From positions 1 to 30,509 of the IMG/VR virus record IMGVR_UViG_3300025910_000026: DNA of 30,509 bases, one strand, 5' to 3'. The translations under genes were made by a program, and so were the position numbers. Below, in pieces: positions 4,739-30,509 of the stretch (the first letter of the stretch is position 1; each line of letters starts with the position of its first letter). The notes under the pieces are model-generated. The model searched no databases. It saw only the letters and a program-made list of their open reading frames with translations, and was not told where the DNA came from. Origin of the DNA: a virus.

Positions 4739-5335
4739 TTATACAACTTCCCTGTAAGGACTCGTCGGATGCAGGAAAACTTCCCGCTTATCGCTGCCTT
4801 CCCCGGCTCCTAAGTGATGAATGATCGGCACGGCTCCCGGGAATCTAGGCTTCATGTACTCCATCCAGCCGTAAGCGGGAGGCAACGTTTTTACGATCAA
4901 CCCTTGCCGCTTGAATTCAAGGATGGTGTATTCCAAGAGCGTTTCATCCAGCTTGATCCCTGGGTATAGGTCGAACATTTCAAGCCATCGCTTTTGTAGC
5001 GCCTTGACCTTTACGTTATTCCTGAAGAACATGGCGCAGCCATGAGGATGCCCTGGAAGGACATATCCCATGCCGATATCGAAATCTCCGGGAGTTAATA
5101 GAACGTCAGGCCGCCGCTCTACCCATGTGTCTGCATCTAGATAGAGAATGTCTTCGGTCTGAGAGTTCAGCATTTCGCCGATGAAGACGACCTTGATCCT
5201 AAGCGCAGCGGACCATGCTGGAACTTCAGGATATTCCTTGAGATGAACGGACAATCCCAGCGCCTCAGCGGACGCTTTCATACGCTCCGCTAGGCGTTTA
5301 TACTTGTCGTTGGTATAGAACGCACAGACCTTCAT
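4739..5335 (-). CDS. glycosyltransferase, GT-A fold (GT8-like), outside the main island
   Basis: The 198-residue protein has the usual plan of a small nucleotide-sugar transferase. An N-terminal strand (KVCAFYTND) is followed by a helix and a DxD motif at 67-69 in ILYLDADTWVERRPDVLL, which would bind Mn2+ and the sugar nucleotide. Later features are HGCAMFFRNN and a C-terminal HH (IIHHLGAG), where GT8-type enzymes have a metal-binding His. The start ATG 5335 overlaps the stop of the upstream gene as ATGA. It lies between tail and terminal genes, 18 kb from the island at 23.8-30.5 kb, so it may modify a tail or envelope component. The acceptor is unknown. Confidence 0.75.
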   Translation of the reverse strand: MKVCAFYTNDKYKRLAERMKASAEALGLSVHLKEYPEVPAWSAALRIKVVFIGEMLNSQTEDILYLDADTWVERRPDVLLTPGDFDIGMGYVLPGHPHGCAMFFRNNVKVKALQKRWLEMFDLYPGIKLDETLLEYTILEFKRQGLIVKTLPPAYGWMEYMKPRFPGAVPIIHHLGAGEGSDKREVFLHPTSPYREVV

Positions 5336-18823: not shown

Positions 18824-19816
18824 TCACACAATCTTGACCGCACTCTGGAAGAGGAAGCTGAAGATCGTCTCGCGGTTGTCGTACTGGACGTAAGGCTGTC
18901 CCGTATTCCGCGTGTGATCGCTCGTCTCCCAGTTGCCCACGGCTTCGTTCAGACCCTTGCGGAGCTGACGAGCCACCGCGCGGGTTTCATTCGGGATCCC
19001 CGTCAGGAACGTGTAGATAGCCGTGTTCGTGATCCTCTGGGACATCTGGGTGCTGTACTGCTTCCCGGAAACCATGATGGTGTTCCCGGTCCCGGCGGCC
19101 GTCGAAATGTCGGTCGTGGACGTCCCGGCGATCTTGGACATCACCGCCATCTGCTTGAACGCCTGCTGCATCACAAGGTTGATGCTCGTGCCGTAGAAGA
19201 TCGTGTAGTGCTGAAGATCCGACTCGTCCCAGAACGGCTGGGATTCCGAGTTCTGAAGGTCGTAGTACCGGGTATCCGCGGAGAAGATGTCCGTGATGAT
19301 CTGCTGGACCGTCGCGAATCCCGTCTGCGTCACGATGTTGCCGCTCGTCGCGCCTTCCCGGGCCGACGCCGAGAACAGCGCCGTGCCGTCGTAGGAAGTC
19401 GTCAGGATCGGCAGGAGGTCCGCATCCGTGCCCGCCGTGATGAACTGATACCAAAGACGCTCCGGGAGGGTAGCCCAGTTCTGCCCAAGGCCACGGGCAA
19501 CCTGCCAAGCGGTCTTCGTCTGATCGTCTTCCCAGTTGCGCGGGAGATAGACCCGGCGGCCCCAGTCCAGATTGGTGACGGAGATCTGGATCGAAAGGAC
19601 GTCCTTCGACGGCATCTGCTTTCCCGCATCCCAGCGGATGGGATAGATCGGCGCCTTGAGAGCGCCGTAGATCTCGGTCAGTTTGTCGGACGTGACTTCG
19701 CCGACAACGGAGCCGATGCGGGCCATGACGCCCTTGTATCTAGGGGAGAATGCGGAACTGTATTCGGCGCGAAGCCCGGCCGTAAGAAGGGCTCCAATGT
19801 TGACGGGGCTGGGCAT
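18824..19816 (-). CDS. major capsid protein (Mu gpT-like)
   Basis: The 330-residue protein starts at ATG 19816 behind AAGGAG. The N-terminal region (NIGALLTAGLRAEYSSAFSP, then ARIGSVVGEVTSDKLTEIYG) and the conserved middle (VYLPRNWEDDQTKTAW, followed by ARGLGQNWATLPERLWYQF and SYDGTALFSA at about 141-150) match the Mu-like major head subunit family, in which a D-D-Q near 97-99 and the YDGxxLF motif are usual. It would form the HK97-fold shell. Its place after the protease/scaffold and a decoration-type gene is as in Mu-like heads. Confidence 0.85.
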   Translation of the reverse strand: MPSPVNIGALLTAGLRAEYSSAFSPRYKGVMARIGSVVGEVTSDKLTEIYGALKAPIYPIRWDAGKQMPSKDVLSIQISVTNLDWGRRVYLPRNWEDDQTKTAWQVARGLGQNWATLPERLWYQFITAGTDADLLPILTTSYDGTALFSASAREGATSGNIVTQTGFATVQQIITDIFSADTRYYDLQNSESQPFWDESDLQHYTIFYGTSINLVMQQAFKQMAVMSKIAGTSTTDISTAAGTGNTIMVSGKQYSTQMSQRITNTAIYTFLTGIPNETRAVARQLRKGLNEAVGNWETSDHTRNTGQPYVQYDNRETIFSFLFQSAVKIV

Positions 19817-20352: not shown

Positions 20353-20967
20353 CTAGTTCTTGGTCCCGATGCTGATATCCCAATGGCGCTCGTTACCTTC
20401 GGCCTGCTCCATCTGGAAGCGGACGTACTCCTCTTCCTTGATGGTCATGCCTCGGCCTGCGCCATGGCTCTTGAGCGTGCGGTACTCGCTGGCAAACCTC
20501 GCGGCCATCTCGAGCTTTTCCGGTCCCTGCTGGGAGAACTTCGCAAGCGCCGGATCGTTGATCGCAACGGAAGAGGCAGCCTCAGCCGCCGCGAACGTGC
20601 GAGGAGAATCCTTGGGGGTAACTTCCTTCAGCGTCTCGATGAAGGCGTTGAGCTGGGCCTCGCCTTCCTGGGCGAACTTGGCAATCTGGGCCTTGGCGCG
20701 ATCACCGATCTGATAGCCCCTCATGCTTTCCAGAGCCTTCGCCGTAAGCTCCTTCGCTTTGTCAGCGGCATCCCGCTCACTCAGGCGCTTTTCAGCGGCA
20801 GCAACCCGGTCCTCCATGGCTGCAAACCGGGCGGCATCCCGGGCTTCCTGTTCCATCTTCGCTCCAGCCTGAGCGACGGCGGGCTTGGCGCCGGGAGGCT
20901 GCTCGACGGGGGCGGCATTGGGCTTGCCGTGCTGCTCATCCTGAACGGGCTTCTTTTCGTCGGCCAT
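20353..20967 (-). CDS. nested scaffold protein (in-frame internal start of protease gene)
   Basis: ATG 20967, at codon 215 of the protease/scaffold gene, has TGGAGG eight bases upstream, a better ribosome binding site than that of the full-length gene. The 204-residue product begins MADEKKPVQD, has an Ala/Pro-rich linker and then long helices (DRVAAAEKRLSERDAADKAK and later EYRTLKSHGAG), the make-up of a scaffold. In Mu (I/Z) and lambda (C/Nu3), the scaffold is made in the same way from inside the protease gene. The internal start is a reading of the sequence; production of the short form is inferred. Confidence 0.7.
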   Translation of the reverse strand: MADEKKPVQDEQHGKPNAAPVEQPPGAKPAVAQAGAKMEQEARDAARFAAMEDRVAAAEKRLSERDAADKAKELTAKALESMRGYQIGDRAKAQIAKFAQEGEAQLNAFIETLKEVTPKDSPRTFAAAEAASSVAINDPALAKFSQQGPEKLEMAARFASEYRTLKSHGAGRGMTIKEEEYVRFQMEQAEGNERHWDISIGTKN

Positions 20968-21609
20968 GGGCTTTGCCTCCAGCTTGGATTTCTCAGACTC
21001 CTTATCGTCCTCTCGGGGATCGAACGTCACGCGCTCGAATCCATCCGAGAATCTAGCGATGGCGCATTCGGCGGGAAGTTCCGCCTCGAATTTTGCTGCG
21101 GGATCGGTGACAACTTTCCCGATAGTCATGAGCGGGAAAGGGTTGTGCGGCGGGATGCTGTCAAGAAGGGCGACCGAGGAGATACGGCCCTTTCTCCAGC
21201 TTCTAACCTCAGGAGAAACGTAGCCAAGCTCCCCAGACTCCATCTTGTCGAAGACCTTTTTCTTGATCTTGAAGTCGCTGTGGACAACCGGAACGTTGCC
21301 GAGATCCGGAAGATCCATCTCCTTTACTTTCGTCGGCACGAAATAGCCGCCGAACTCAGGGTTATGGATTCCCTGATCGTCCGTATGGGTCAGATGAATC
21401 GGATAGGCGATCTTGCTTTTGTTGTAAGCTTCCTGCCCAAACTTGATCGCGCCGTTGAACCAATCTGTGCTGATGTCTTCCGGCGCGTACATCTGGCCCT
21501 TTTTGACAGGGGCCAGAGTGGGGATGTCCTTCAGTACATACCAACCGTCACCGGTATCGTAGGCGGTATAGTCGCCGCCCTTGATATTCGGTTTGGTTGC
21601 GGATGCCAT
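20353..21609 (-). CDS. prohead protease with C-terminal scaffold domain (Mu I/Z-like)
   Basis: This 418-residue protein combines an N-terminal protease region (about 1-170) and a helical scaffold (about 215-410). In the first, the order YPIHLTHTDDQG (His 72 and 75), GYVSPEVRSW (Ser 132, S-x-E type) and ISSVALLDSIPPHNP fits phage head-maturation proteases with a His/Ser pair, including Mu gpI. It should cleave scaffold or capsid proteins inside the procapsid. The start ATG 21609 is the first after a 61-base gap and has only a modest AGG upstream. The nearby minor head and capsid genes support the role. The protease residues are inferred from pattern. Confidence 0.75.
   Translation of the reverse strand: MASATKPNIKGGDYTAYDTGDGWYVLKDIPTLAPVKKGQMYAPEDISTDWFNGAIKFGQEAYNKSKIAYPIHLTHTDDQGIHNPEFGGYFVPTKVKEMDLPDLGNVPVVHSDFKIKKKVFDKMESGELGYVSPEVRSWRKGRISSVALLDSIPPHNPFPLMTIGKVVTDPAAKFEAELPAECAIARFSDGFERVTFDPREDDKESEKSKLEAKPMADEKKPVQDEQHGKPNAAPVEQPPGAKPAVAQAGAKMEQEARDAARFAAMEDRVAAAEKRLSERDAADKAKELTAKALESMRGYQIGDRAKAQIAKFAQEGEAQLNAFIETLKEVTPKDSPRTFAAAEAASSVAINDPALAKFSQQGPEKLEMAARFASEYRTLKSHGAGRGMTIKEEEYVRFQMEQAEGNERHWDISIGTKN
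20976..20981 (-). promoter_or_regulatory. internal ribosome binding site for the nested scaffold
   Basis: TGGAGG on the - strand within the protease gene, eight bases before ATG 20967. It is stronger than the site before the full gene at 21609, as expected where scaffold must be made in larger amounts than protease. Confidence 0.65.
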
Positions 21610-22704: not shown

Positions 22705-22985
22705 AGTGCCAGCCTAGGCCCTTTCCCGTTTACCGGCACGATCACATTCCCGAACATCCCTTTGAGCTTGCTCGTGCCTACCTCATCCACTTCGTACAGC
22801 GTCATGTTGGAGACTTGGTAGGATTTCGGTTTGCACATACCGTCAAGCGACGGGATCCACTTCACAAGGCCCATCCCGCCGTCAGGTGTCAGCATCGCAA
22901 AGGCAACGCGACAGCAGTTCCCTTGCTCGTCAATCTCGACGGCACCACCGTAGGTGCCGATATCTGGAGTGAAGTACCATTTCAC
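22701..22985 (-). CDS. hypothetical protein between co-chaperonin and minor head genes (94 aa)
   Basis: It starts at GTG 22985, which shares one base with the stop of the GroES-like gene (TAGTG), and GGAGG lies at good spacing upstream. The protein is strand-rich (GGAVEIDEQGNCCRVAFAML, SYQVSNMTLYEVDEVG) and ends GNVIVPVNGKGPRLAL. No family is recognised. It is tightly linked to the Mu F-like gene by a GTGA overlap and so is probably made with head proteins. Two adjacent Cys at 24-25 are notable but no metal site is complete. Confidence 0.55.
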   Translation of the reverse strand: MKWYFTPDIGTYGGAVEIDEQGNCCRVAFAMLTPDGGMGLVKWIPSLDGMCKPKSYQVSNMTLYEVDEVGTSKLKGMFGNVIVPVNGKGPRLAL

Positions 22986-23767
22986 TAGTTGCCTCCTGAA
23001 TCCACCAGCGTCTTCTGGTTCAACTCGTCAAGGTGACTTTCCGGGATGACTTCGTAATCGTCTACAGGCTTGGCTAGTTTGTCCTGTCCTGCGATCACGT
23101 CCACGATTCCGCCTTCAATCACCGCTTCGATATCTTCCTCGCTGACAAGGCGGTATTCAATCCCTTTCACGCGCACGATGCATCCGGCATAGCGCATACA
23201 GATAGCTTTGTCTCCCGGCTTGACGGATACCGGCGTCGGCTTGTCGGCCTTCTGTTTCCTCGCTCCAGGGCCAATCGAAACGACTTCAGCCACCCGGTAC
23301 ATCGCCTGTGGATTGCTCGGCATGAATAGGTGACCTTTCAGCGTCTTTTCCTCGCTGTCCATCTTGACCAGAATGTGATCCCGGTAGGGGAATAGCTCTG
23401 CGATCTCCCAATCCATTTCACTCTTCATGCTGAGGATCAGCCTCGCCCAAATCCCATGATCCCGAATCAGCTTGTACTTCTTGCCTACCGCCTGAACCTT
23501 CTCCCCCATGTACTGCACCGACATGATGATATCGCCTTCTTTGAGCGCGATGGGATAAACCTTGCCGGATTCAGGGTTGAACTCGCCTTGCCCTAGACGC
23601 ACTACCCGACCATACAAGCATTCGCTTTTCTCGTTGCCGGGAATGATTAGTCCAGACTTGGAATAGCTACGGTCTAGAACTTCGACCAGAATGTAATCCG
23701 CCAAGGGTGCAATCTCCTTAGGGTCGGGGAGCTTGTAGGCGACGTCACTAATCAGGGAACGGGGCAT
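22985..23767 (-). CDS. tandem GroES-domain co-chaperonin (Cpn20-like architecture)
   Basis: ATG 23767 follows GGAGG at five bases and overlaps the previous stop (TGATG). The 260-residue protein has two GroES domains. Domain 1 (about 21-112) shows PLADYILVEVLDRSYSKSGL, then LYGRVVRLGQG, LKEGDIIMSVQYMGEKVQAV and KYKLIRDHGI; domain 2 (about 128-220) shows PYRDHILVKMD, KGHLFMP, AEVVSIGPGAR, VKPGDKAICMRYAGCIVRVK and EYRLVSEEDIEAVI. Each keeps the mobile-loop hydrophobic triplet that GroES uses to bind GroEL (LII at 40-42; LFM at 147-149). Phage GroES-like proteins such as T4 gp31 help fold capsid protein with host GroEL, and the place just before head genes agrees. The chain ends in a 40-residue acidic tail. 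Confidence 0.85.
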   Translation of the reverse strand: MPRSLISDVAYKLPDPKEIAPLADYILVEVLDRSYSKSGLIIPGNEKSECLYGRVVRLGQGEFNPESGKVYPIALKEGDIIMSVQYMGEKVQAVGKKYKLIRDHGIWARLILSMKSEMDWEIAELFPYRDHILVKMDSEEKTLKGHLFMPSNPQAMYRVAEVVSIGPGARKQKADKPTPVSVKPGDKAICMRYAGCIVRVKGIEYRLVSEEDIEAVIEGGIVDVIAGQDKLAKPVDDYEVIPESHLDELNQKTLVDSGGN

Positions 23768-24612
23768 CAGGGCCTCCAACCGAATAGATCAAGATCCTTG
23801 AATCTCTCCGCACCATACTCCCGCACCATGCGCTTGCATTCCCGCTCATACCACACGGGCGCATTCAGGTTGATCTTGCTCTTGGGATAGTCGCCCCACC
23901 AGCTTTCAGGAATTTTCAGCAAGTCATTCCCATGGGGCGGCTTCAAAGCCCAATGGTATTTCTCGGTAATCTCACTTGCTGGATAACTCCAGCGGACTAA
24001 CTCGCTCATCATGTAATGACGATGCTTCCAGATGAATCGGTTCCATGCCGCAAACTGCAAGTGCATGACCCCGCCAGCGGCATCAACTACAGGCGTGCGG
24101 ATTCCGCAATGCGGCGGTCTGTTGTGATGGTGGTATTTCTCTTCTCCCCGTGGAGCGAAGCCCAAGCCGGGAGCATCCTTGAATCCAAGCGTGATGATCC
24201 CGCGAGTATGAGGCGAATACCAATCCAGCGACTTCCAAGGCGCGATCATCGGCACGTCTAGGACTTCGCCGTCTTTGAGCGCGCCGAACCAGTTACGAAC
24301 ATTGCCTAGATTGTTGTGGGTCAGAATCTCATCAGCGTCTGTAATGGAACAATGAGTAGCACCAAGACTTCTAGCGTCCTCAAGATTCTTCTGCCTGTGA
24401 TCCATTTCATCCCAGTGTTCTCCATCCACGTTCTCGGACGTGATGAAGTCTTTATCGGATGATTTGGCGATTTCCTTTACGATTTCTACCGTGTAGTCCG
24501 TGCAGCGGTCGAAGAAGATGGCGGCACCGTCACACCAGCGCATAGCGGCCCTGAGAGATGCGCCGAGGATCCATTCCTCATTGCGTAGGACGCAAAGGGC
24601 GATGATTCTCAT
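23767..24612 (-). CDS. glycosyltransferase, family 2-like
   Basis: The 281-residue protein begins with the GT2-type strand and first loop RIIALCVLRNEEWILGASLR, then AAIFFDRCTDYTVEIVKEI and the DxD motif at 92-94 in CSITDADEILTHNN, which binds the metal and sugar nucleotide. The C-terminal half has WNRFIWKHRHYMMSELVRWS and ALKPPHGND, as in short soluble GT2-like enzymes. There is no membrane segment, so it acts in the cytoplasm. ATG 24612 overlaps the stop of the epimerase gene (ATGA). Substrate and acceptor are unknown. Confidence 0.8.
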   Translation of the reverse strand: MRIIALCVLRNEEWILGASLRAAMRWCDGAAIFFDRCTDYTVEIVKEIAKSSDKDFITSENVDGEHWDEMDHRQKNLEDARSLGATHCSITDADEILTHNNLGNVRNWFGALKDGEVLDVPMIAPWKSLDWYSPHTRGIITLGFKDAPGLGFAPRGEEKYHHHNRPPHCGIRTPVVDAAGGVMHLQFAAWNRFIWKHRHYMMSELVRWSYPASEITEKYHWALKPPHGNDLLKIPESWWGDYPKSKINLNAPVWYERECKRMVREYGAERFKDLDLFGWRP

Positions 24613-25526
24613 GCTTTAGAAAAATAGTTTGTATACCACCCGATGCACTTCGCCAAGCCTTCTTCCAGCGAATGGCTAGGCTTCCATCCCAGCTTCTCAC
24701 GGGCGAGCCCTGCGTTAGTCCACTGGTCTACGATCTCTCCATGCCTATCGACTTCATCAACAGGAATGAGATCCGATCCCATGAGTTGCAGGAGAGTATC
24801 CACGATGTACTTGACCGTCACACCTTGACCGCTGCCGAAGTTCATAGGGCCGGTGTAGTCGCTGGCGGCAAGCTTGAGATAGGCGTCTATCGCATCGTCA
24901 ATGTAAAGCCAGTCCCGCCGCATCTTCCCGCCGTTGCGGATCATCGGACGAATCCCTTGCAGGATTCGCCGGATCGTGTTAGGCACCAGCGTAGACAGGC
25001 TCAGGCATCCAGGGCCGTAGAGATTGACGCACCGAGTCGTAGCGATGCTCATGCCGTAACTGGACGTGTAGGTACGGGCGATAAGATCGACGCAAGCCTT
25101 GGACGTCTCATAAGGACGATCCGGGGATAGCGGCAAGTCTTCATGATAAGGCGGCGCTGTACGGCCATAAGCCTTGTCTGAGCTGCTGACTACCACACGC
25201 CTGATCTTCTGTCTACGGCACGCTTCAAGGATATTCCAAGTCCCCTTGATGTTGGTTTCAAACGTGCCGGTAGGATCCGTCAAGCCTACCGCTATTTCTG
25301 TAATAGCTGCCAAGTGGAACACAGTATCTATCTGATGGCGGGCTAGAACGGCATCCCACATAGCCCCATCGGACAAATCGCTGAACACGGCGTTATCGAA
25401 ATCTTTGTGATCCGACTTGTGGAGATGATGGAAGATGGCCGTTACCACGACGCCTTGCTTGCGTAGCGCGGCACAGAGATGACGGCCTAGAAAGCCGTTG
25501 GAGCCTGTAACGAGAGCCCGCTTCAA
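24609..25526 (-). CDS. NAD-dependent nucleotide-sugar epimerase/dehydratase (extended SDR)
   Basis: The 305-residue protein has the SDR plan: G-x2-G-x2-G in TGSNGFLGRHL (7-17), an Asp after strand 3, HLAAI at 71-75, catalytic Ser in VVVSSSDKAYG (111-121), Y139-x3-K143 in RPYETSKACVD, CVNLYGPG, and RRDWLYIDDAIDAYL near 210-225. The SSDKAYG segment is reminiscent of CDP-glucose 4,6-dehydratase and GDP-mannose dehydratase relatives, but the substrate cannot be fixed. The start is TTG 25526, overlapping the FkbM stop (TTGA), with AAAGG upstream. It would make a modified sugar nucleotide for the neighbouring transferases. Confidence 0.85.
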   Translation of the reverse strand: MKRALVTGSNGFLGRHLCAALRKQGVVVTAIFHHLHKSDHKDFDNAVFSDLSDGAMWDAVLARHQIDTVFHLAAITEIAVGLTDPTGTFETNIKGTWNILEACRRQKIRRVVVSSSDKAYGRTAPPYHEDLPLSPDRPYETSKACVDLIARTYTSSYGMSIATTRCVNLYGPGCLSLSTLVPNTIRRILQGIRPMIRNGGKMRRDWLYIDDAIDAYLKLAASDYTGPMNFGSGQGVTVKYIVDTLLQLMGSDLIPVDEVDRHGEIVDQWTNAGLAREKLGWKPSHSLEEGLAKCIGWYTNYFSKA

Positions 25527-26113
25527 GCTAGACCTTTCTCAATGGCTAGGACATCCCAATAGTTCTCAATGCACCCGTATCGCTTTTCCCACACCTGATT
25601 TTGAATAACATACCACCGCCTGAGTTTATCTATGATCCTGTCACACTCTGCGCGGCCTCTGGCTCGGTCGGTATGTTCGTGGAAACTGAAGACGATCTGG
25701 CGAGCAATGGGGCCGTCAATCTCGTCTAGGATGTCGTACTCACTGCCTTCGATATTGAGTTTGATGAGATCCCACTGAACGCCAGCCATCGGAAGTGCAT
25801 TAAGTGAAACAGCCTCAACCGGCACAGAATAGGCGTCCTTATCCACTTGGGTATGCCAAGCGTTAGGATCAGAGCTTAGATGAAGATGCATTCCGCGTGG
25901 ATACTTCTTTCCAACTAGAGCCGCCTCATAAAGAGTGACACCCTTTGGAGCTTCTCCGATATCCGGACTTGGATCAAATGCGTAGACATGATGCCCCCGA
26001 TCAGCAAACCATTTCGCAAAGACAAAGCCCCTAGCCCCAGCGTCAAGGACAGGCCCCTTCGTGAGCAAGTCTTCCCTGAACGAATGGTTGTCTACAGTCA
26101 ATAGGTTTTGCAT
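25523..26113 (-). CDS. FkbM-family SAM-dependent methyltransferase
   Basis: ATG 26113 is chosen, which overlaps the upstream gene by 16 bases; longer versions overlap more. The 196-residue protein has the SAM-binding loop PVLDAGARGFVFAKWF at 21-36, an acidic end of strand 2 (YAFDPSPD) and the family signature DLIKLNIEGSEYDIL at 115-129, matching FkbM domains. FkbM proteins commonly O-methylate sugars of glycolipids, polysaccharides or glycosylated surface proteins. The lengths and neighbours (sugar epimerase, transferases) agree with methylation of a glycan. It is coupled to the epimerase gene. Confidence 0.8.
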   Translation of the reverse strand: MQNLLTVDNHSFREDLLTKGPVLDAGARGFVFAKWFADRGHHVYAFDPSPDIGEAPKGVTLYEAALVGKKYPRGMHLHLSSDPNAWHTQVDKDAYSVPVEAVSLNALPMAGVQWDLIKLNIEGSEYDILDEIDGPIARQIVFSFHEHTDRARGRAECDRIIDKLRRWYVIQNQVWEKRYGCIENYWDVLAIEKGLA

Positions 26114-26802
26114 ACCGTCTGCCAATCCGTATAACTCAGCGGCTCCATTCCAAGCTGCTCGATCATGAGAGTAAAGCAACTCTCATCCGATCTGTGGCCC
26201 TCTACTCTTGGGTCAAGCGAGATGATCGAACTGTCCGCATCGGCTAGAAGCAGCGAGCGCATGACGTTGTTCCCATCCAGCCCCAGCCGCCGATTAGCTC
26301 CCGTCATGAGCGTTTTTACTTTAGCGATTTCTCCCCACTTCTCAAAGAACTTCATAGCTATAGGGTTATCCCGATCCAGGGCCACGATACAGCCCCCGCA
26401 CAGCGTCTTCGTGAACGCCTCTTCCCGGGTCACTCCGAAGTACTTGAGCGCCTCATCACTGATCCATTTCCCGAGATTGTCGGCCCCCCTCAGGATGATA
26501 TGCCCCATGGACTTCAGGCGATCCCATAGCGGAGTCAGTGGGGCAAGCGCCTGAGTCCCGGCGTCAAGCCACATGACGTAGCGATAGCCTTGGTCGAACA
26601 TAGCCTTAACCGCCCACCATTTGAACGAGTAGGTACTCTCTTGGTGTGACGGCGAGCCCGGAGGCCAGAACTTGCGGTAGATATGGACGTCAGCGCCCAT
26701 GCCGTACTGACCTAGACTCGCTTCCAGCCTGTCCGCGAACTTGGCGTAGTACTCCGGGTTATGCGGAGCAAAGCAGCAGCTAACAATTACACGGTCGTTC
26801 AT
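26098..26802 (-). CDS. glycosyltransferase-like protein (GT-A type)
   Basis: ATG 26802 overlaps the stop of the upstream gene (ATGA), so a longer frame upstream is not used. The 234-residue protein begins VIVSCCFAPHNPEYYAKFAD, then has KWWAVKAMFDQGYRYVMWLD with Asp 80 and D-A-G in place of the usual D-x-D, followed by LCGGCIVALDRDN and a C-terminal VEGHRSDESCFTLM. This is the plan of small nucleotide-sugar transferases of the GT-A type with an altered metal motif. Its acceptor is unknown. The single-Asp motif and lack of close family make this a slightly less certain transferase. Confidence 0.65.
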   Translation of the reverse strand: MNDRVIVSCCFAPHNPEYYAKFADRLEASLGQYGMGADVHIYRKFWPPGSPSHQESTYSFKWWAVKAMFDQGYRYVMWLDAGTQALAPLTPLWDRLKSMGHIILRGADNLGKWISDEALKYFGVTREEAFTKTLCGGCIVALDRDNPIAMKFFEKWGEIAKVKTLMTGANRRLGLDGNNVMRSLLLADADSSIISLDPRVEGHRSDESCFTLMIEQLGMEPLSYTDWQTVCKTY

Positions 26803-27302
26803 TGAATGATTGCCGTCTCTTCGTCGGTAAGCCCGAACGCTTCCACATCGCTTAAGATCAAAGTATGAGGGCGAAGCATCCGGTACGTTTCGTTGTGCTT
26901 GAATTGGCCGATGATGTACTCGTAGTAGTAAGCCGCCGCTGGGCCTGCTTCGTGATCGTGAAGGATAATAAAGCGAGCGCGGCCCTTGAGCTTCATCGCA
27001 AGGTGACGGCGTTCCTCTCCAGGGGCGCAATCAATGAAGGCAACGCCGTAATGCTTCTGCTTTGGCTCCCACTTTGACCAGTTCTCTACTAGTGGCACGT
27101 TGAAGATCTTAGCCCACTCTGGATTGCTATCGTAAGATTCAAGGATGCGCGGGATTGGCAACCCTGCCGTACGCGTGCACATCAACCGCAACATTGGTGT
27201 TGAAGTCCACCCGCAACCAAGCTCAAGAACTGGCCCAAGGCTGCGAGCCACAGCAGCAGCTAACACTGGGAAGTGACTCCCATAACCAATGTCAGGGCGC
27301 AT
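26799..27302 (-). CDS. class I SAM-dependent methyltransferase-like protein
   Basis: ATG 27302 overlaps the upstream stop by one base (TAATG) with GGAG nine bases upstream; ATG 27317 is an alternative. The protein has a motif I loop PVLELGCGWTSTPML at 24-38, a strand-2 end ESYDSNPEW (55-63), YGVAFIDCAPGEERRHLA at 85-102 and FIILHDHEAG at 111-120. These are the expected strands 1, 2, 4 and 5 of a Rossmann-type methyltransferase. The substrate is unknown; the location between sugar genes suggests a glycan or sugar donor. It ends in ATGA overlap with the transferase gene. Confidence 0.7.
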   Translation of the reverse strand: MRPDIGYGSHFPVLAAAVARSLGPVLELGCGWTSTPMLRLMCTRTAGLPIPRILESYDSNPEWAKIFNVPLVENWSKWEPKQKHYGVAFIDCAPGEERRHLAMKLKGRARFIILHDHEAGPAAAYYYEYIIGQFKHNETYRMLRPHTLILSDVEAFGLTDEETAIIQ

Positions 27303-27541
27303 TAGCGTTCGCTCCATTCGCCCAAGCCCGCACCATGCCTCACCAGAGGAACGAACGTCACCTTGACGTTAGCATCCTGCAAGACGTTGAGATCAACGCT
27401 TGGAAGGACTTGGAGATCAACTACCGCGTCCCAGACTTTGACTACCACGGCGGGGAGTTCTGGCCGATGGCCTTTGTCGTGGAATAGCGGATCGTCAATG
27501 CGAGGATGGTACAACACAATCGACCCGACGCTAACAGTCAT
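27302..27541 (-). CDS. small conserved phage protein, SH3-like barrel candidate (79 aa)
   Basis: The gene starts at ATG 27541, 10 bases inside the end of the upstream gene. The sequence VGSIVLYHPRIDD, HRPELPAVVVKVWDAVVDLQ and a final GLGEWSER follows a recurring pattern of small phage proteins (opening G-x-I-V-x-Y, then P-A-x-V-V-x-V-W, ending G-x-W-x-x-x-R), thought to be a small beta-barrel. Its function is unknown. Its presence within a sugar-gene cluster may be incidental or may mark a fixed phage gene around which island genes were added. Confidence 0.6.
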   Translation of the reverse strand: MTVSVGSIVLYHPRIDDPLFHDKGHRPELPAVVVKVWDAVVDLQVLPSVDLNVLQDANVKVTFVPLVRHGAGLGEWSER

Positions 27542-28379
27542 ATCCCCTCGCTTTCGAGTAAGCCTCGCGGTACTTGTCCACCCAATCCATTTTCTCAGGA
27601 ATGTAATGCTCGATGATCGGTCTGATCTTGGGCCAGTTCTCTCGAGTAGCTCCAGGCCTGATCAAATGAGTATCGACGTACTTCTTTGACCAGTCGAATT
27701 CCGCAGGCCAGCAGCCTCGGTCAATCCGGTCATGCGGCGGGCATCCTTCCCGTGTGATCATCTGCACTCGATCAGGATAGCCGCCCCACGCTTTCAGCTT
27801 GGAATTGAAGTAGAGTTCATCCTGCCACCACGCCATCCAGCTATCGTGATAGCGGCCTAGAGTCCTGTCGAAGTTGGCCTGCATCTGACTGAGGATCTCG
27901 CCGCGCACTTCAAGCTGCATGACTTCACGCCATTTTTTGACGGTGGCTTGTATGTACGGCGTGGGATGGAACGGCGGATAGGGCCAGCCGTAAGCGTTGG
28001 CGTACCAGCTTGTGAAATCCCACCTAACCGGATCATGCTGGCGGAACCAGTCCCCGTCCAAACTCCACATGTCGATATCGCCCGTGACGAGTTGATCATC
28101 TTCGGGGATATCCAATGCAGCGGCGTGTTGTCTTGAAGATTGAGCAGCCTGAGCGTCTCTGTAGCCTTCAAGCTTGCCGATATGCTCTACTTTTGCGCCA
28201 GCCTCAATAGTGGCGTTCTTGACTACTTGAGCAACCGGATTCTCCCATTCCTTGGAAGTGTCAGTAAAGAAACAGAGCGTCCGGTAGCCTACAATGTGCT
28301 TCCAGAAAAGCGTCGTGATCGGTGCGAAGAAGTCATAGCTTCCGGATTGATTTGTAGCGATGACGGCGTAAGTGGTCAT
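27531..28379 (-). CDS. glycosyltransferase-like protein (GT-A type)
   Basis: The 282-residue protein begins TTYAVIATNQSGSYDFFAPI, has TLCFFTDTSKEW (strand 2), and the DxD motif at 101-103 in QLVTGDIDMWSLDG. The central part (DFTSWYANAYGWPYPPFHPT) and MAWWQDELYFNSKLKAWGG probably form the acceptor pocket, as DE and WW are typical near the active site. The C-terminal HYIPEKMDWVDKYREAYSKA is helical. It is cytoplasmic, without membrane segments. ATG 28379 lies two bases after the upstream stop. Sugar donor and acceptor are unknown. Confidence 0.7.
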   Translation of the reverse strand: MTTYAVIATNQSGSYDFFAPITTLFWKHIVGYRTLCFFTDTSKEWENPVAQVVKNATIEAGAKVEHIGKLEGYRDAQAAQSSRQHAAALDIPEDDQLVTGDIDMWSLDGDWFRQHDPVRWDFTSWYANAYGWPYPPFHPTPYIQATVKKWREVMQLEVRGEILSQMQANFDRTLGRYHDSWMAWWQDELYFNSKLKAWGGYPDRVQMITREGCPPHDRIDRGCWPAEFDWSKKYVDTHLIRPGATRENWPKIRPIIEHYIPEKMDWVDKYREAYSKARGYDC

Positions 28380-28381
28380 GA

Positions 28382-28567
28382 TTAACGTTCTACAATCGAG
28401 TATTTTCCTTTAGATCCCAGCTTGCGTTCCGCATCGTCAATTTCGCTAATGCAGATACGTATCTTTTGCTTTGACGCCTCAGTCAACCGTTCTCTGGTTA
28501 GATCAACAGCTAGGATCTGCCTAATAACTTCCGCAACGCCAGCGTCAAGCTCAATGTACTTACTCAT
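28382..28567 (-). CDS. small helical hypothetical protein (61 aa)
   Basis: It starts at ATG 28567, overlapping the upstream stop as ATGA. It is all-helical and charged: ELDAGVAEVIRQILAVDLTR, then LTEASKQKIRICISEIDDAE and a basic tail. No family is recognised. It might be an assembly or regulatory partner, but nothing in the sequence shows this. The size, start coupling and clean frame support a true gene. Confidence 0.55.
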   Translation of the reverse strand: MSKYIELDAGVAEVIRQILAVDLTRERLTEASKQKIRICISEIDDAERKLGSKGKYSIVER

Positions 28568-29370
28568 ATCCTCGAAATCCTTTCATTCGATTCCACCCCA
28601 GCCCAACCTTTCTCGCACTCTTCGATCTCTGCAAGCTTTGGACAATGGCCGCGATTGCGTGAGAACCAGCCTACCAGCGGATCCACATGATAGGCGCCGC
28701 CAATGTGATTCGTTAGCTGATCAATGTAGCTGTCTTTCGCTCCCAGCGTCGTGCGATCCTCATAAGCAATCTGACCCCCAGCATGAGGCAGGATCGCAGC
28801 ATTCAGCAATCGTTGATCCGCCCCGTGCTGATTCATGTCGATCCCGAACTGATCCGCCAGGGCCATGAAGGACGCCCAGCTAGAAAACCGATCCAGCATC
28901 CAGTCGGCCTTAAAGCCGACCATTCCACCCATCAACGCCGTGGAACTATGGGACTCGCTATCGTGAAGGGCCGAGATAGCACGATCAGAAGCAATCCACT
29001 TCTCGATAGCTCTCCGCTCCCGTGGAGTCGAGAGCGAATCTACATCCCTGCACAGCACACGCTTGACGCTAAGATTCCAAATCGGCAGGAGCCGCCAGCA
29101 CATCGCACCGCAGAGCTTGGTAGCCTCGCCCATGGGAATCAGCTTGAGCAATCCGCGTTCGTGCATTCGCTCCATGACCGGCCAATAGCTGTACTCCCTG
29201 ACTCGATTATCGTGGTACAGCCACAGCGACCAATCGGGATAGACAGCCCAGTGACCACGCACGATGGCACGGATGTAGTTACAGAAGAAAACGCCACGGC
29301 CAGCGCCAGCGCGTTCAGATTCGTATGCGCTGTTGGCGTGGCGATAGAAACTGTAGGCGATGACATTCAT
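28564..29370 (-). CDS. glycosyltransferase-like protein with DxD motif
   Basis: The 268-residue protein begins NVIAYSFYRHANSAYESERA, then has PDWSLWLYHDNRV, a strand with KRVLCRDVDSLSTPRERRAI carrying DVD at 109-111 and a later GGMVGFKADWMLDRF and QHGADQRLLNAAILPHAGG with a conserved-type D-Q-x-L-L-N. This is the order expected for a GT-A nucleotide-sugar transferase (donor loop, DxD, acceptor site). ATG 29370 overlaps the mini-HTH stop (ATGA). Role in glycan synthesis is likely from motif and neighbours; specificity is unknown. Confidence 0.7.
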   Translation of the reverse strand: MNVIAYSFYRHANSAYESERAGAGRGVFFCNYIRAIVRGHWAVYPDWSLWLYHDNRVREYSYWPVMERMHERGLLKLIPMGEATKLCGAMCWRLLPIWNLSVKRVLCRDVDSLSTPRERRAIEKWIASDRAISALHDSESHSSTALMGGMVGFKADWMLDRFSSWASFMALADQFGIDMNQHGADQRLLNAAILPHAGGQIAYEDRTTLGAKDSYIDQLTNHIGGAYHVDPLVGWFSRNRGHCPKLAEIEECEKGWAGVESNERISRI

Positions 29371-29495
29371 CTAACGTAGGCCCTAAGGATCTGTTCCACT
29401 GTAACGCGCTTTACCTTCCACAGCTTTGCGAGCATAGACATGGACATCCCAAAGCGGAACTGATCTGCAATCGTATCCTTAGTGCGTTTGCTCAT
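29367..29495 (-). CDS. mini helix-turn-helix protein (42 aa) within the sugar island
   Basis: The ORF runs from ATG 29495 to TGA 29369-29367, with ATGA overlaps at both ends with its neighbours. The sequence is MSKRTKDTIADQFRFG followed by MSMSMLAKLWKVKRVTVEQI and LRAYVR: helix 1, a turn after KLWKVK and a recognition helix (RVTVEQILRAYV). It resembles the second half of phage mini-HTH proteins such as the one at 605-769 (G-x-T/M-I/S-x-x-I/L-A...V-E-x-I-I/L-R). It probably binds DNA. The double coupling argues strongly for a true gene. Confidence 0.65.
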   Translation of the reverse strand: MSKRTKDTIADQFRFGMSMSMLAKLWKVKRVTVEQILRAYVR

Positions 29496-29983
29496 AGCTG
29501 CGCCACCATGATATCTTCCGGCACTACCCCATCCTCAAAGCTGATCTTGTAATCCGCAATCGCCTTGAGATGGGAGATGATGATTTCTTTCGAGAGGCCC
29601 CAGCCTTCCATGCAGCGCATGTCGTCGATGAGGATGACGCGAGGCGATAGATTCCATCTTGCTATTGAATCCAGCTCATGCAGCACGGGGCTATGGGTTT
29701 CTGTATGAGCGTCCAAGAACACAACAGAAGGTACCGCATATCCATCATGCCTTAGATAGAGGGTTGACGGCTCGCACATTACTGACGCATTCCCCCTCGG
29801 GCACGCCTCCCTTAGATGGGCGCTTGCAAGACTGGCATACAAGGCATCATTCTCACAACCAAAAGCACTTACGGCTCCACACTCAATTGCGCGTATGAGA
29901 GTGTCACCCCAACGGCTGCCGCACTCGACAAAGATCATTCCCGGCTTCACATACTTCGCCAGCACTTCGCGGGAGATACTCAC
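29492..29983 (-). CDS. class I SAM-dependent methyltransferase-like protein (163 aa)
   Basis: GTG 29983 is preferred because it overlaps the upstream stop (GTGA) with GAGGG 10 bases before it; TTG 29992 is an alternative. Motif I is MIFVECGSRWGDTLIRAIE at 16-34, then FGCENDALYASLASAH (strand 2 acidic residue), VPSVVFLDAHTETHSPVLHE with Asp 91 and VILIDDMRCMEGWG at 117-130. The strands and acidic residues at their ends fit a small Rossmann methyltransferase. A sugar or lipid-glycan substrate is suggested only by its neighbours. Confidence 0.65.
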   Translation of the reverse strand: MSISREVLAKYVKPGMIFVECGSRWGDTLIRAIECGAVSAFGCENDALYASLASAHLREACPRGNASVMCEPSTLYLRHDGYAVPSVVFLDAHTETHSPVLHELDSIARWNLSPRVILIDDMRCMEGWGLSKEIIISHLKAIADYKISFEDGVVPEDIMVAQL

Positions 29984-30509
29984 AGCGGGCAAGCCCTCAT
30001 GAAAGCGTCAGCCACTTGCGAGACATCCGGCACAAAGCTGATTGCGGGCGGCAAAGTCGGATCGTCTCTCAGGTCTACAGGATGCGGTACGTCCATTCCT
30101 ACGGAAGCAAAGTAGTCCCTGAACTTCGCCCCATCGCCTCCAAGCGAATCACTGATCTTGACCCAAGTAGCGGGAATCCCATAGGCGTGAGCCACGATGA
30201 TCCCATGCAGCGAACTCGAATAGATCATCTTGCAGGAGGCGATATCCTCGATCACTTCCTCGATAGGCTTAAACACGTCGATGAAGTCGCGGTATCTGTC
30301 GAAGGCTCTGTAGGCGTCAACGTAGTGGCTGACTACCCCAAACGGCTTACTCGGCTTGCTCTTGGGGGTGTAAAACCTCGGCAACAGCATCCCAGGATCA
30401 CCATATACCGCTGGGCAATCCCGGCCCGTTGACAGCACTCTAGCCCGCGTGAGCGGCCCACGTACCGCCATGATCTTGCACTTGGGATTTACGCCATCGG
30501 TAATGGTCC
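29980..30509 (-). CDS. polysaccharide pyruvyl transferase-like protein, C-terminal part (cut by window edge)
   Basis: The reading frame is open to the right edge, so the true start lies beyond 30509. The visible 176 or so residues contain the order typical of the pyruvyl transferase family: KIMAVRGPLTRARVLSTG, then CPAVYGDPGMLLPRFYTP, GVVSHYVDAYRAF, VIEDIASCKMIYSSSLHGII and VAHAYGIPATWVKIS. The S-S-L-H-G-I-I/V-A motif and the V-R-G-P-L-T-R motif are the best markers. Enzymes of this family transfer pyruvate from phosphoenolpyruvate to a sugar hydroxyl, adding negative charge to surface polysaccharides. It is coupled to the methyltransferase gene by a 4-base overlap. Confidence 0.8.
   Translation of the reverse strand, partial: TITDGVNPKCKIMAVRGPLTRARVLSTGRDCPAVYGDPGMLLPRFYTPKSKPSKPFGVVSHYVDAYRAFDRYRDFIDVFKPIEEVIEDIASCKMIYSSSLHGIIVAHAYGIPATWVKISDSLGGDGAKFRDYFASVGMDVPHPVDLRDDPTLPPAISFVPDVSQVADAFMRACPL

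Follow-up and report, generated by a model that had tools for sequence, protein, structure and literature searches.

A terminase-linked glycosyltransferase cassette in the late operon of uncultured phages and its possible role in virion glycosylation

Virion glycosylation in mycobacteriophages (Che8, Corndog/cluster O) was reportedly described by Freeman et al. 2023. Glycosyltransferases (GTs) of phages in metagenomes are frequently classed as auxiliary genes whose target is the host surface. In the mycobacteriophage work (PMC11600133, PMC11256854, PMC12619734), tandem GTs and an O-methyltransferase of cluster O phages modify the capsid and the tail tube (PMC11600133). Chloroviruses make their capsid glycans in the cytoplasm with enzymes of their own, among them a GT/methyltransferase (PMC5408694), and the GTs of pelagimyophages have been read as modifiers of the host O-chain (PMC7029224). 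Here we describe a glycan-modification island in the late operon of an uncultured virus (30,509 nucleotides, the whole stretch analysed, hereafter the window) and compare it with these systems.

The likeness to the mycobacteriophages lies in a soluble machinery that joins GTs encoded by the phage to a sugar methyltransferase, which in the window are P1, P7 and P9 together with P3 in one run (genes listed below). There, glycans have been demonstrated on capsid and tail tube, whereas here a virion glycan is predicted; about three tandem GTs compare with 8 or more in the terminase-linked cassette here, and the dehydratase and the putative pyruvyltransferase present here are not reported in the available text of those papers. 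A tblastn search of P1, P4, P7 and P9 against 50,697 phage records gave zero matches in Mycobacterium phages and, since sequence homology was not found, we say that the cassette works like the mycobacteriophage system and not that it is a member of it. PBCV-1 also relies on GT-A enzymes that the virus encodes, that lack a signal peptide and that work in the cytoplasm; it has GT and methyltransferase domains linked to each other and sugar synthesis of the GDP-mannose dehydratase type, with the product on the major capsid protein (PMC5408694). However, it is a eukaryotic algal virus whose GT genes are expressed early, and our comparison makes no claim of homology.

Phage gtrABC seroconversion cassettes likewise consist of phage-borne GTs that alter glycans, but in the window cassette neither a GtrA flippase nor a membrane GT was found, and it sits in a late operon. 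Cyanophage and pelagiphage clusters (S-SRM01, P-SSM2, pelagimyophages) share GT, FkbM and GMD/fucose synthase genes with it; S-SRM01 has a P9 homologue within its glycan cluster (E=2e-35), on the strand opposite to its neighbours, and P-SSM2 a P1-like GT2. These clusters lie among the auxiliary genes of 240-250-kb myophages and not in a terminase-linked ordered cassette. A cultured counterpart for part of the cassette occurs in the Stanwilliamsviridae Streptomyces phages Gilson and EGole (genomes of 120-135 kb), which have a tandem GT pair with a homologue of the cassette gene gA (E=6e-37 and 7e-36), located in Gilson on the terminase strand about 4.3 kb upstream of the terminase; P9, P7 and P5 were not found in the 17-19 kb regions tested.

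Layout and gene content of the island

The genes are as follows, from the contig end of the island through the head genes to the distal part of the late operon.

29980..30507, minus: P11, polysaccharide pyruvyltransferase-like (PF04230, E=6.6e-13), N-terminus lost at the contig end
29492..29992, minus: P10, small methyltransferase-like protein (Rossmann), assigned by its GSRWGDT motif alone
29366..29494, minus: 42-aa ORF with helix-turn-helix likeness by eye, overlapping both neighbours
28564..29370, minus: P9, GT-A glycosyltransferase family and cassette marker (CRDVDS motif; without a Pfam model; 50 loci)
28382..28567, minus: P8, 61-aa ORF
27531..28379, minus: P7, GT-A glycosyltransferase (invariant TGDIDM, DxD motif; 45 loci)
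27302..27541, minus: P6, 79-aa protein (weak phrog_2293; 67-68% conservation in G001/G002)
26799..27317, minus: P5, methyltransferase-like, conserved cassette member (GxGxGST motif; 36 loci, one cluster)
26098..26802, minus: P4, glycosyltransferase-like (DxG motif, WLDAG; 17 loci; start probably the ATG at 26802)
25523..26179, minus: P3, FkbM-family methyltransferase (PF05050, E=5.4e-8; phrog_8156)
24609..25526, minus: P2, SDR nucleotide-sugar 4,6-dehydratase/epimerase (PF01370, Epimerase, E=1.9e-56)
23767..24612, minus: P1, GT2-type glycosyltransferase (PF13704, Glyco_tranf_2_4, E=1.6e-5, slightly below the curated cutoff)
22985..23779, minus: tandem Cpn10, 2 GroES domains per chain (PF00166 in two stretches, E=5e-33), overlapping P1
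21850..22704, minus: Mu gpF-like minor head protein (PF04233, E=5e-21)
20353..21609, minus: protein in protease/scaffold position, named by position only; conserved in G001/G002, without family match
18824..19816, minus: Mu gpT-like major capsid protein (phrog_371, E=4e-7; PF10124, E=6e-4)
4739..5335, minus: extra GT8-like gene (weak PF03407), outside the island and at the opposite end of the late operon

A reading made from the sequence alone had described a tight leftward run of sugar genes that leads into GroES-like, minor head and capsid genes, and both parts of that description hold. We found 13 minus-strand ORFs between 23767 and 30509 in a single leftward run, with families assigned by Pfam, fold or motif: four GTs, a nucleotide-sugar dehydratase/epimerase, an FkbM methyltransferase, two other methyltransferase-like proteins and a truncated pyruvyltransferase. 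Most junctions are overlaps of 3-16 bp, with a single 2-bp gap; the apparent 82-bp overlap between P3 and P4 becomes 16 bp if P3 starts at an internal ATG (about 26113), likely its true start. Island and head genes are joined by a 13-bp overlap between the final island gene and GroES, which in turn overlaps the next gene by 1 bp; the gpF-like gene, the gene in protease/scaffold position and the gpT-like capsid gene follow. A pattern scan of the window gave no terminator-like or promoter-like enrichment between island and head genes, shuffled sequences having more promoter-like sites than the scan counted, and the base composition of the island is similar to that of the remaining contig. The island may be co-transcribed with the late genes.

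With regard to the individual proteins, P1 shares 28% identity with a cyanophage GT2 across 98% of its length. P2 carries YETSK and SSSDK motifs and scored under the cutoff of the NCBIfam dTDP-/CDP-glucose 4,6-dehydratase models. P3 reached 33.6 bits against PF05050, above the gathering score of 22.7, and 33.0 against NCBIfam TIGR01444, under its cutoff of 37.7. P11 scored 49.6 bits against PF04230 (gathering score 25.3) and has orthologues in two longer relatives of the window, G001 (65% identity) and G002 (64%); its window copy is truncated, the ketal activity is putative, and phmmer returned no PDB homologue. Pfam gave no informative match for P4, P7, P9, P5 or P10. P5 is methyltransferase-like by its aligned motif only, with weak profile support; the profile support of P10 is also weak, and its orthologue was matched in G001 (48%) and not in G002. 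The PDB matches of P4 were to UGGT and insignificant (E about 0.2).

That P7 and P9 are glycosyltransferases is supported by structure prediction. Their AF2 models (pLDDT 88.7 and 85.1, respectively) have GT-A folds with GT8/GT24 enzymes as best PDB matches: Foldseek paired P7 with UGGT (GT24, E=8e-7) and GT8 3tzt (E=8.5e-7), and P9 with GT8 3tzt (E=2e-5) and also with glycogenin and UGGT. TGDIDM is invariant across 14 P7 sequences, and RD.DS is conserved in P9. On these models, both are GT-A, GT8/GT24-like enzymes with a DxD-type motif, and mutual homology between them was undetectable by profile.

Recurrence of the cassette in other phages

In G001 and G002 the entire island lies between the portal and the GroES-gpF-capsid genes. 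Gene content differs among relatives (an extra methyltransferase, a second epimerase, a phosphatase-like gene), P1 identity is 38% in G001 vs 57% in G002, and homologues of the GT8-like gene at 4739-5335 adjoin the cassette in G001. This relative also has a tyrosine-recombinase-like gene; the relatives could be temperate.

Beyond this group, P9 was found in 50 and P7 in 45 viral loci of about 15 lineages, with a common partner set in conserved order (P9 50/51, P7 45/51, gA 41/51, gB 40/51 and P5 36/51 loci). P7 shares the strand of P9 and lies downstream of it in 43 of 44 cases, and in all 35 loci with a recognised terminase this gene is on the cassette strand, 2-7.5 kb off. Pairwise agreement in cassette gene order across lineages reached 601/760 vs 380 +/- 19 in shuffled data (about 12 SD), so the order is not due to chance. 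In the distant HK97-type contig L061 the arrangement is portal-gpF-[gA gB P9 .. P7]-S78 protease-PF05065 capsid-GT4-connector. In other phages the cassette lies closest to terminase and tail genes rather than to capsid genes. The earlier proposal of an island fused to a head operon is partly borne out: co-orientation and tight late-gene overlap are kept in G001, G002 and L061. It is too narrow, however, in that the neighbours shared across phages are terminase and late genes, with the cassette recurring as an ordered module.

A conserved-motif scan did not find P7 in GTDB genomes, and an alignment scan found no relatives of the major capsid protein there. By tblastn against INPHARED, searched for cultured relatives, the capsid protein, P7, P4 and P5 had no matches, while P9 had only partial ones, in jumbo/uncultured, Acinetobacter and Synechococcus phages. 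We found no description of the cassette in the open-licence literature, and this set of unrelated GT families linked to terminase appears to be undescribed. The P9-P7 pair can serve as a marker for finding phages that bear it.

Possible acceptors of the glycan

We consider it rather probable that the island encodes a virus-specific assembly line, expressed late, which builds an oligosaccharide in the cytoplasm and has a virion protein as its target. P2 would provide an activated sugar, probably a 6-deoxy one, to which the soluble GT-A enzymes P1, P4, P7 and P9 would add further sugars sequentially in the cytoplasm, and the FkbM and other methyltransferase-like proteins, perhaps with the PF04230 protein, would cap or modify them. 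Three points favour a virion protein of capsid, decoration or tail as the most likely acceptor: the genes lie inside a terminase/head operon, they are conserved there across phages of different capsid types, and none of the membrane steps for glycan export or lipid-linking was found in the tested records.

This last point bears on modification of the host surface, where a lipid-linked O-unit or other surface glycan would be remodelled during infection or lysogeny with superinfection block or serotype change as outcome. Surface polysaccharide clusters typically contain FkbM, epimerase and PF04230 families. Pelagimyophage GT clusters have been so interpreted (PMC7029224), and in two other architectures the cassette ends in a small membrane protein (c17/c21 clusters), which may denote a surface role there. 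Nevertheless, we regard this explanation as unlikely for the window. Homologues are not confined to seroconversion genes, given that P7 was not found among bacterial genomes in the GTDB motif scan and that GtrA, an initiating sugar-phosphate transferase, a flippase and a Wzy polymerase/ligase were not found in the tested records: GtrA (PF04138) in 0/33, with positive controls matched in 7, PF02397 and PF13440 (initiating transferase/flippase tests) in 0/51, and PF00953 and PF04932 (Glycos_transf_4, Wzy_C tests) in 0/33. Positive controls of these searches gave matches. Also, all cassette proteins of the window are soluble by hydropathy, no cassette family is membrane-bound (maximum KD19 >=1.8 in 0 members except one P3 call), and the genes lie within the late operon instead of a lysogenic operon of their own.

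Terminase being the most constant neighbour, the GTs might instead glycosylate phage DNA bases before packaging, and a Tet_JBP dioxygenase is indeed encoded between cassette and terminase in L044/G017, while 6/33 records have a C5 DNA methylase. However, this was the sole TET dioxygenase (PF12851) among 51 records, outside the window's group; thymidylate synthase family genes (PF00303) occurred in 0/51, and a C5 DNA methylase in none of G000, G001, G002 and G005. A base hydroxyl would then come without a recognised supplying enzyme, and nucleotide-sugar dehydratase, pyruvyl- and O-methyl-type genes better suit an elaborate glycan, all of which makes DNA hypermodification quite improbable, with the reservation that the contigs may be incomplete. 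Equally improbable is a random accretion of morons, sugar genes piled up at a permissive spot without a common product, since variable gene content and the uneven P1 identity among relatives are outweighed by gene order conserved over about 15 lineages, which argues strongly against it, by motif-level conservation of P7 and P9, by vertical conservation within the window's group and by the matching base composition.

Returning to glycosylation of the virion, dozens of other uncultured phages share this gene set and its order, so that it probably represents a widespread virion-sugar system. More tentatively, we propose that a portable, order-conserved, terminase-linked cassette of virus-restricted GT families (DUF115/Maf-like - GT2s - P9 - P7 - P4 - FkbM - P5 - GT2) coats virions in many uncultured phages that differ in capsid type; its caps would vary from one close relative to the next, so that the particle surface evolves. 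Conserved order, the lock to terminase and late genes and the missing export steps argue that many phage GTs act on the particle. If so, self-made variable glycan coats would be common in uncultured phages and would bear on receptor access, particle stability, grazing and immune recognition.

Head genes and the tandem Cpn10

We found no description of a phage tandem Cpn10 in the open-licence literature. In an alignment scan its matches were confined to the window's own group; a single-sequence scan was empty because exact window peptides were used. The best PDB match covering both domains is the chloroplast Chaperonin 23. As regards composition, serine plus threonine make up 10-22% of the window structural proteins and 31.5% of one G002 protein, which as a clue to the acceptor is suggestive only.

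The glycan island and its enzymes

In the window, a viral record of 30,509 bp from IMG/VR, nearly all genes between 30,507 and about 3,800 lie on the minus strand, and the island (23767-30509) constitutes the first 6.7 kb of this leftward run. Nearly every junction between its genes is an overlap of a few bases. The run continues with the tandem Cpn10 and gpF, then the protease-position, decoration-position and capsid genes. Order, overlaps and families confirm the sequence-only reading, which had described a single leftward run of glycan genes leading into GroES-like and head genes. From the contig end, the island contains:

P11, right end (29980-30507), minus strand, PF04230 match
P10, minus strand, methyltransferase-like
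42-aa ORF, 29366-29494, minus strand, helix-turn-helix-like by eye, overlapping its neighbours on both sides
P9, minus strand, glycosyltransferase (GT)
P8, minus strand, between P9 and P7
P7, minus strand, GT
P6, minus strand, between P7 and P5
P5, minus strand, methyltransferase-like
P4, minus strand, GT-like
P3, minus strand, FkbM
P2, minus strand, nucleotide-sugar dehydratase/epimerase
P1, 23767-24612, minus strand, GT2

A pattern scan of the island/head-gene region detected fewer promoter-like sites than in shuffled sequence, and no terminator-like or promoter-like feature stood out at the boundary. The G+C of the island (52-55%) is similar to that of the remaining contig. The other end of this operon of late genes carries a GT8-like gene (4739-5335, minus strand), homologous to a GT inside the island of the relative G001; genes for the glycan may be distributed over the operon.

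AlphaFold2 models of P7 and P9 were confident (pLDDT 88.7 and 85.1). Foldseek against the PDB matched P7 with UDP-glucose:glycoprotein glucosyltransferase (GT24), GT8 and glycogenin (E about 1e-6), and P9 with GT8 members (E about 2e-5). Structure prediction, proposed earlier as a check on the transferases, thus supports a predicted GT-A fold class for both proteins and, the TM-scores being low (about 0.5), does not extend to donor and acceptor. In the alignments P7 holds an invariant TGDIDM motif and P9 keeps RD.DS. P2 carries the YxxxK motif of SDR enzymes and, in the active site, an SSSDK segment that resembles the one of CDP-glucose 4,6-dehydratase; its product would be a 6-deoxysugar. P3 is assigned to FkbM by Pfam, while P5 and P10 are putative methyltransferases by motif.

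Also in the operon, 22985-23779 (minus strand) encodes a co-chaperonin with two Cpn10 domains in a single chain, the halves being 29% identical. The top PDB match covering both domains is chloroplast Chaperonin 23 (E=4e-16). The tandem is kept in four relatives, and no phage tandem Cpn10 was found in the literature searched.

Relatives and distribution of the cassette

A capsid protein search of IMG/VR returned four further contigs (82-85% identical). Two of these are long (G001, 51.7 kb; G002, 48 kb) and share the order terminase small and large subunits, Mu-type portal (PF06074), island, tandem Cpn10 and gpF, followed by protease-position, decoration, capsid and tail genes. Upstream of the point matching the window's right end, their islands hold additional genes, including a GT8-like one and a DUF115/Maf-like protein matching phrog_4603 'alpha-2,3-sialyltransferase'; G002 also has a second SDR enzyme, closest to GDP-L-fucose synthase, and another GT-like gene. 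Identity to the relatives is 38-76% for island genes versus 31-79% for head and tail genes without the capsid, and this overlap marks the island as inherited within the group rather than recently inserted. Its content differs among relatives (an extra methyltransferase, a phosphatase-like gene), and P10 has no match in G002. From G002:38234 onwards (L013/L014), an 872-aa protein with 31.5% Ser+Thr adjoins decoration/tail genes and is a possible glycan acceptor.

Alignment searches yielded 13 further viral contigs for P7 (22-27% identity) and 48 loci for P9. ORFs were called and clustered in 51 loci including the window, these contigs being fragments and related ones not fully independent. P9 occurs in 50 loci, P7 in 45 and P5 in 36. 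Of two GT-like families, gA occurs in 41 and gB in 40. P4 and P3 each reach 17 loci; a DUF115-like family was counted in 14 plus 4, and terminase (large subunit) in 32 plus 4. Loci lacking terminase mostly have short flanks or belong to very large phages (L045, L053, L066). Clustered at 50% identity, the P9 sequences split into 17 groups, which come from about 15 different lineages of phages. P9 then P7 on the same strand was found in 43/44 loci scored for both. Terminase and cassette share a strand in all 35 loci where both were recognised, at 2 to 7.5 kb, with terminase lying upstream of the cassette in 19 of them and downstream of it in 16; since P9 was the sole criterion for choosing contigs, this linkage is not a selection effect. 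With one representative per lineage, pairwise gene order agreed in 601/760 cases versus 380 +/- 19 when shuffled, so the neighbourhood search suggested earlier did recover the same order in other phages, across about 15 lineages. We distinguished at least four arrangements:

Arrangements of the cassette among phages
1, window's group: portal, cassette, Cpn10, gpF, gpT capsid
2: terminase, cassette, small membrane protein, tape measure (tape-measure match)
3: cassette, small membrane protein, terminase (PF03237, E=7e-21)
4, L061: portal (PF04860), gpF, cassette (gA, gB, P9, two unknown, P7), S78 protease, HK97 capsid (PF05065), GT4, connector

In L061 the head operon encloses the cassette, and the phage's capsid family differs from the window's; in L070, likewise with a PF05065 capsid, the cassette is placed after the head-tail genes. 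Cyanophage S-SRM01 has a P9 homologue inside a fucose/GT/FkbM cluster, and cultured Streptomyces phages encode a gA homologue, 4.3 kb upstream of terminase in Gilson. In two other architectures, short hydrophobic proteins with paired cysteines (clusters c17/c21, e.g. L059:15486-15779) lie at the cassette end. L033:15228-16865 encodes a gpF-like minor head protein with an intein-splicing domain match (PF14890, E=4e-8; the score narrowly exceeds a threshold set 2 bits below the curated cutoff).

Virion glycosylation as such is already known; a terminase-linked, order-conserved cassette based on GT families without Pfam models appears to be undescribed, as far as the searched collections and open-licence papers go. 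A scan of GTDB genomes that relied on one conserved motif did not detect P7, which gave one weak match among 50,697 phage records.

Probable acceptor of the glycan

The cassette proteins are soluble, and no initiating sugar-phosphate transferase, flippase, polymerase/ligase or GtrA was found in 33 to 51 records, control genomes being positive. Soluble GTs would act sequentially, together with sugar synthesis and methylation, and would be produced alongside late proteins; such a set, without lipid-linking or export, points to an acceptor in the cytoplasm that exits the cell as part of the particle, which would be a virion protein. Modification of a virion protein best explains the cassette, where acceptor, timing and chemistry are what we infer. 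As precedents, tandem GTs and an O-methyltransferase produce the glycans on the capsid and tail tube of mycobacteriophages (PMC11600133), and chlorovirus capsid glycans are synthesized in the cytoplasm by virus enzymes (PMC5408694).

Modification of host surface glycans seems unlikely to us, since no gene of the lipid-linking or export types sought turned up in the 33 to 51 records; in its favour, the host provides flippases and lipid carriers, and in other phages the cassette ends with a small membrane protein. That the cassette modifies phage DNA, as its linkage to terminase and a single TET dioxygenase gene could suggest, is less probable still, given that no thymidylate-synthase-family enzyme occurred among the records searched and the TET gene, present in one record, lies outside the window's group. 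This Tet_JBP dioxygenase (L044:9381-10169) lies between cassette and terminase beside an ORF that looks ParB-like by eye, and is the single hint that DNA may be a target of some cassettes.
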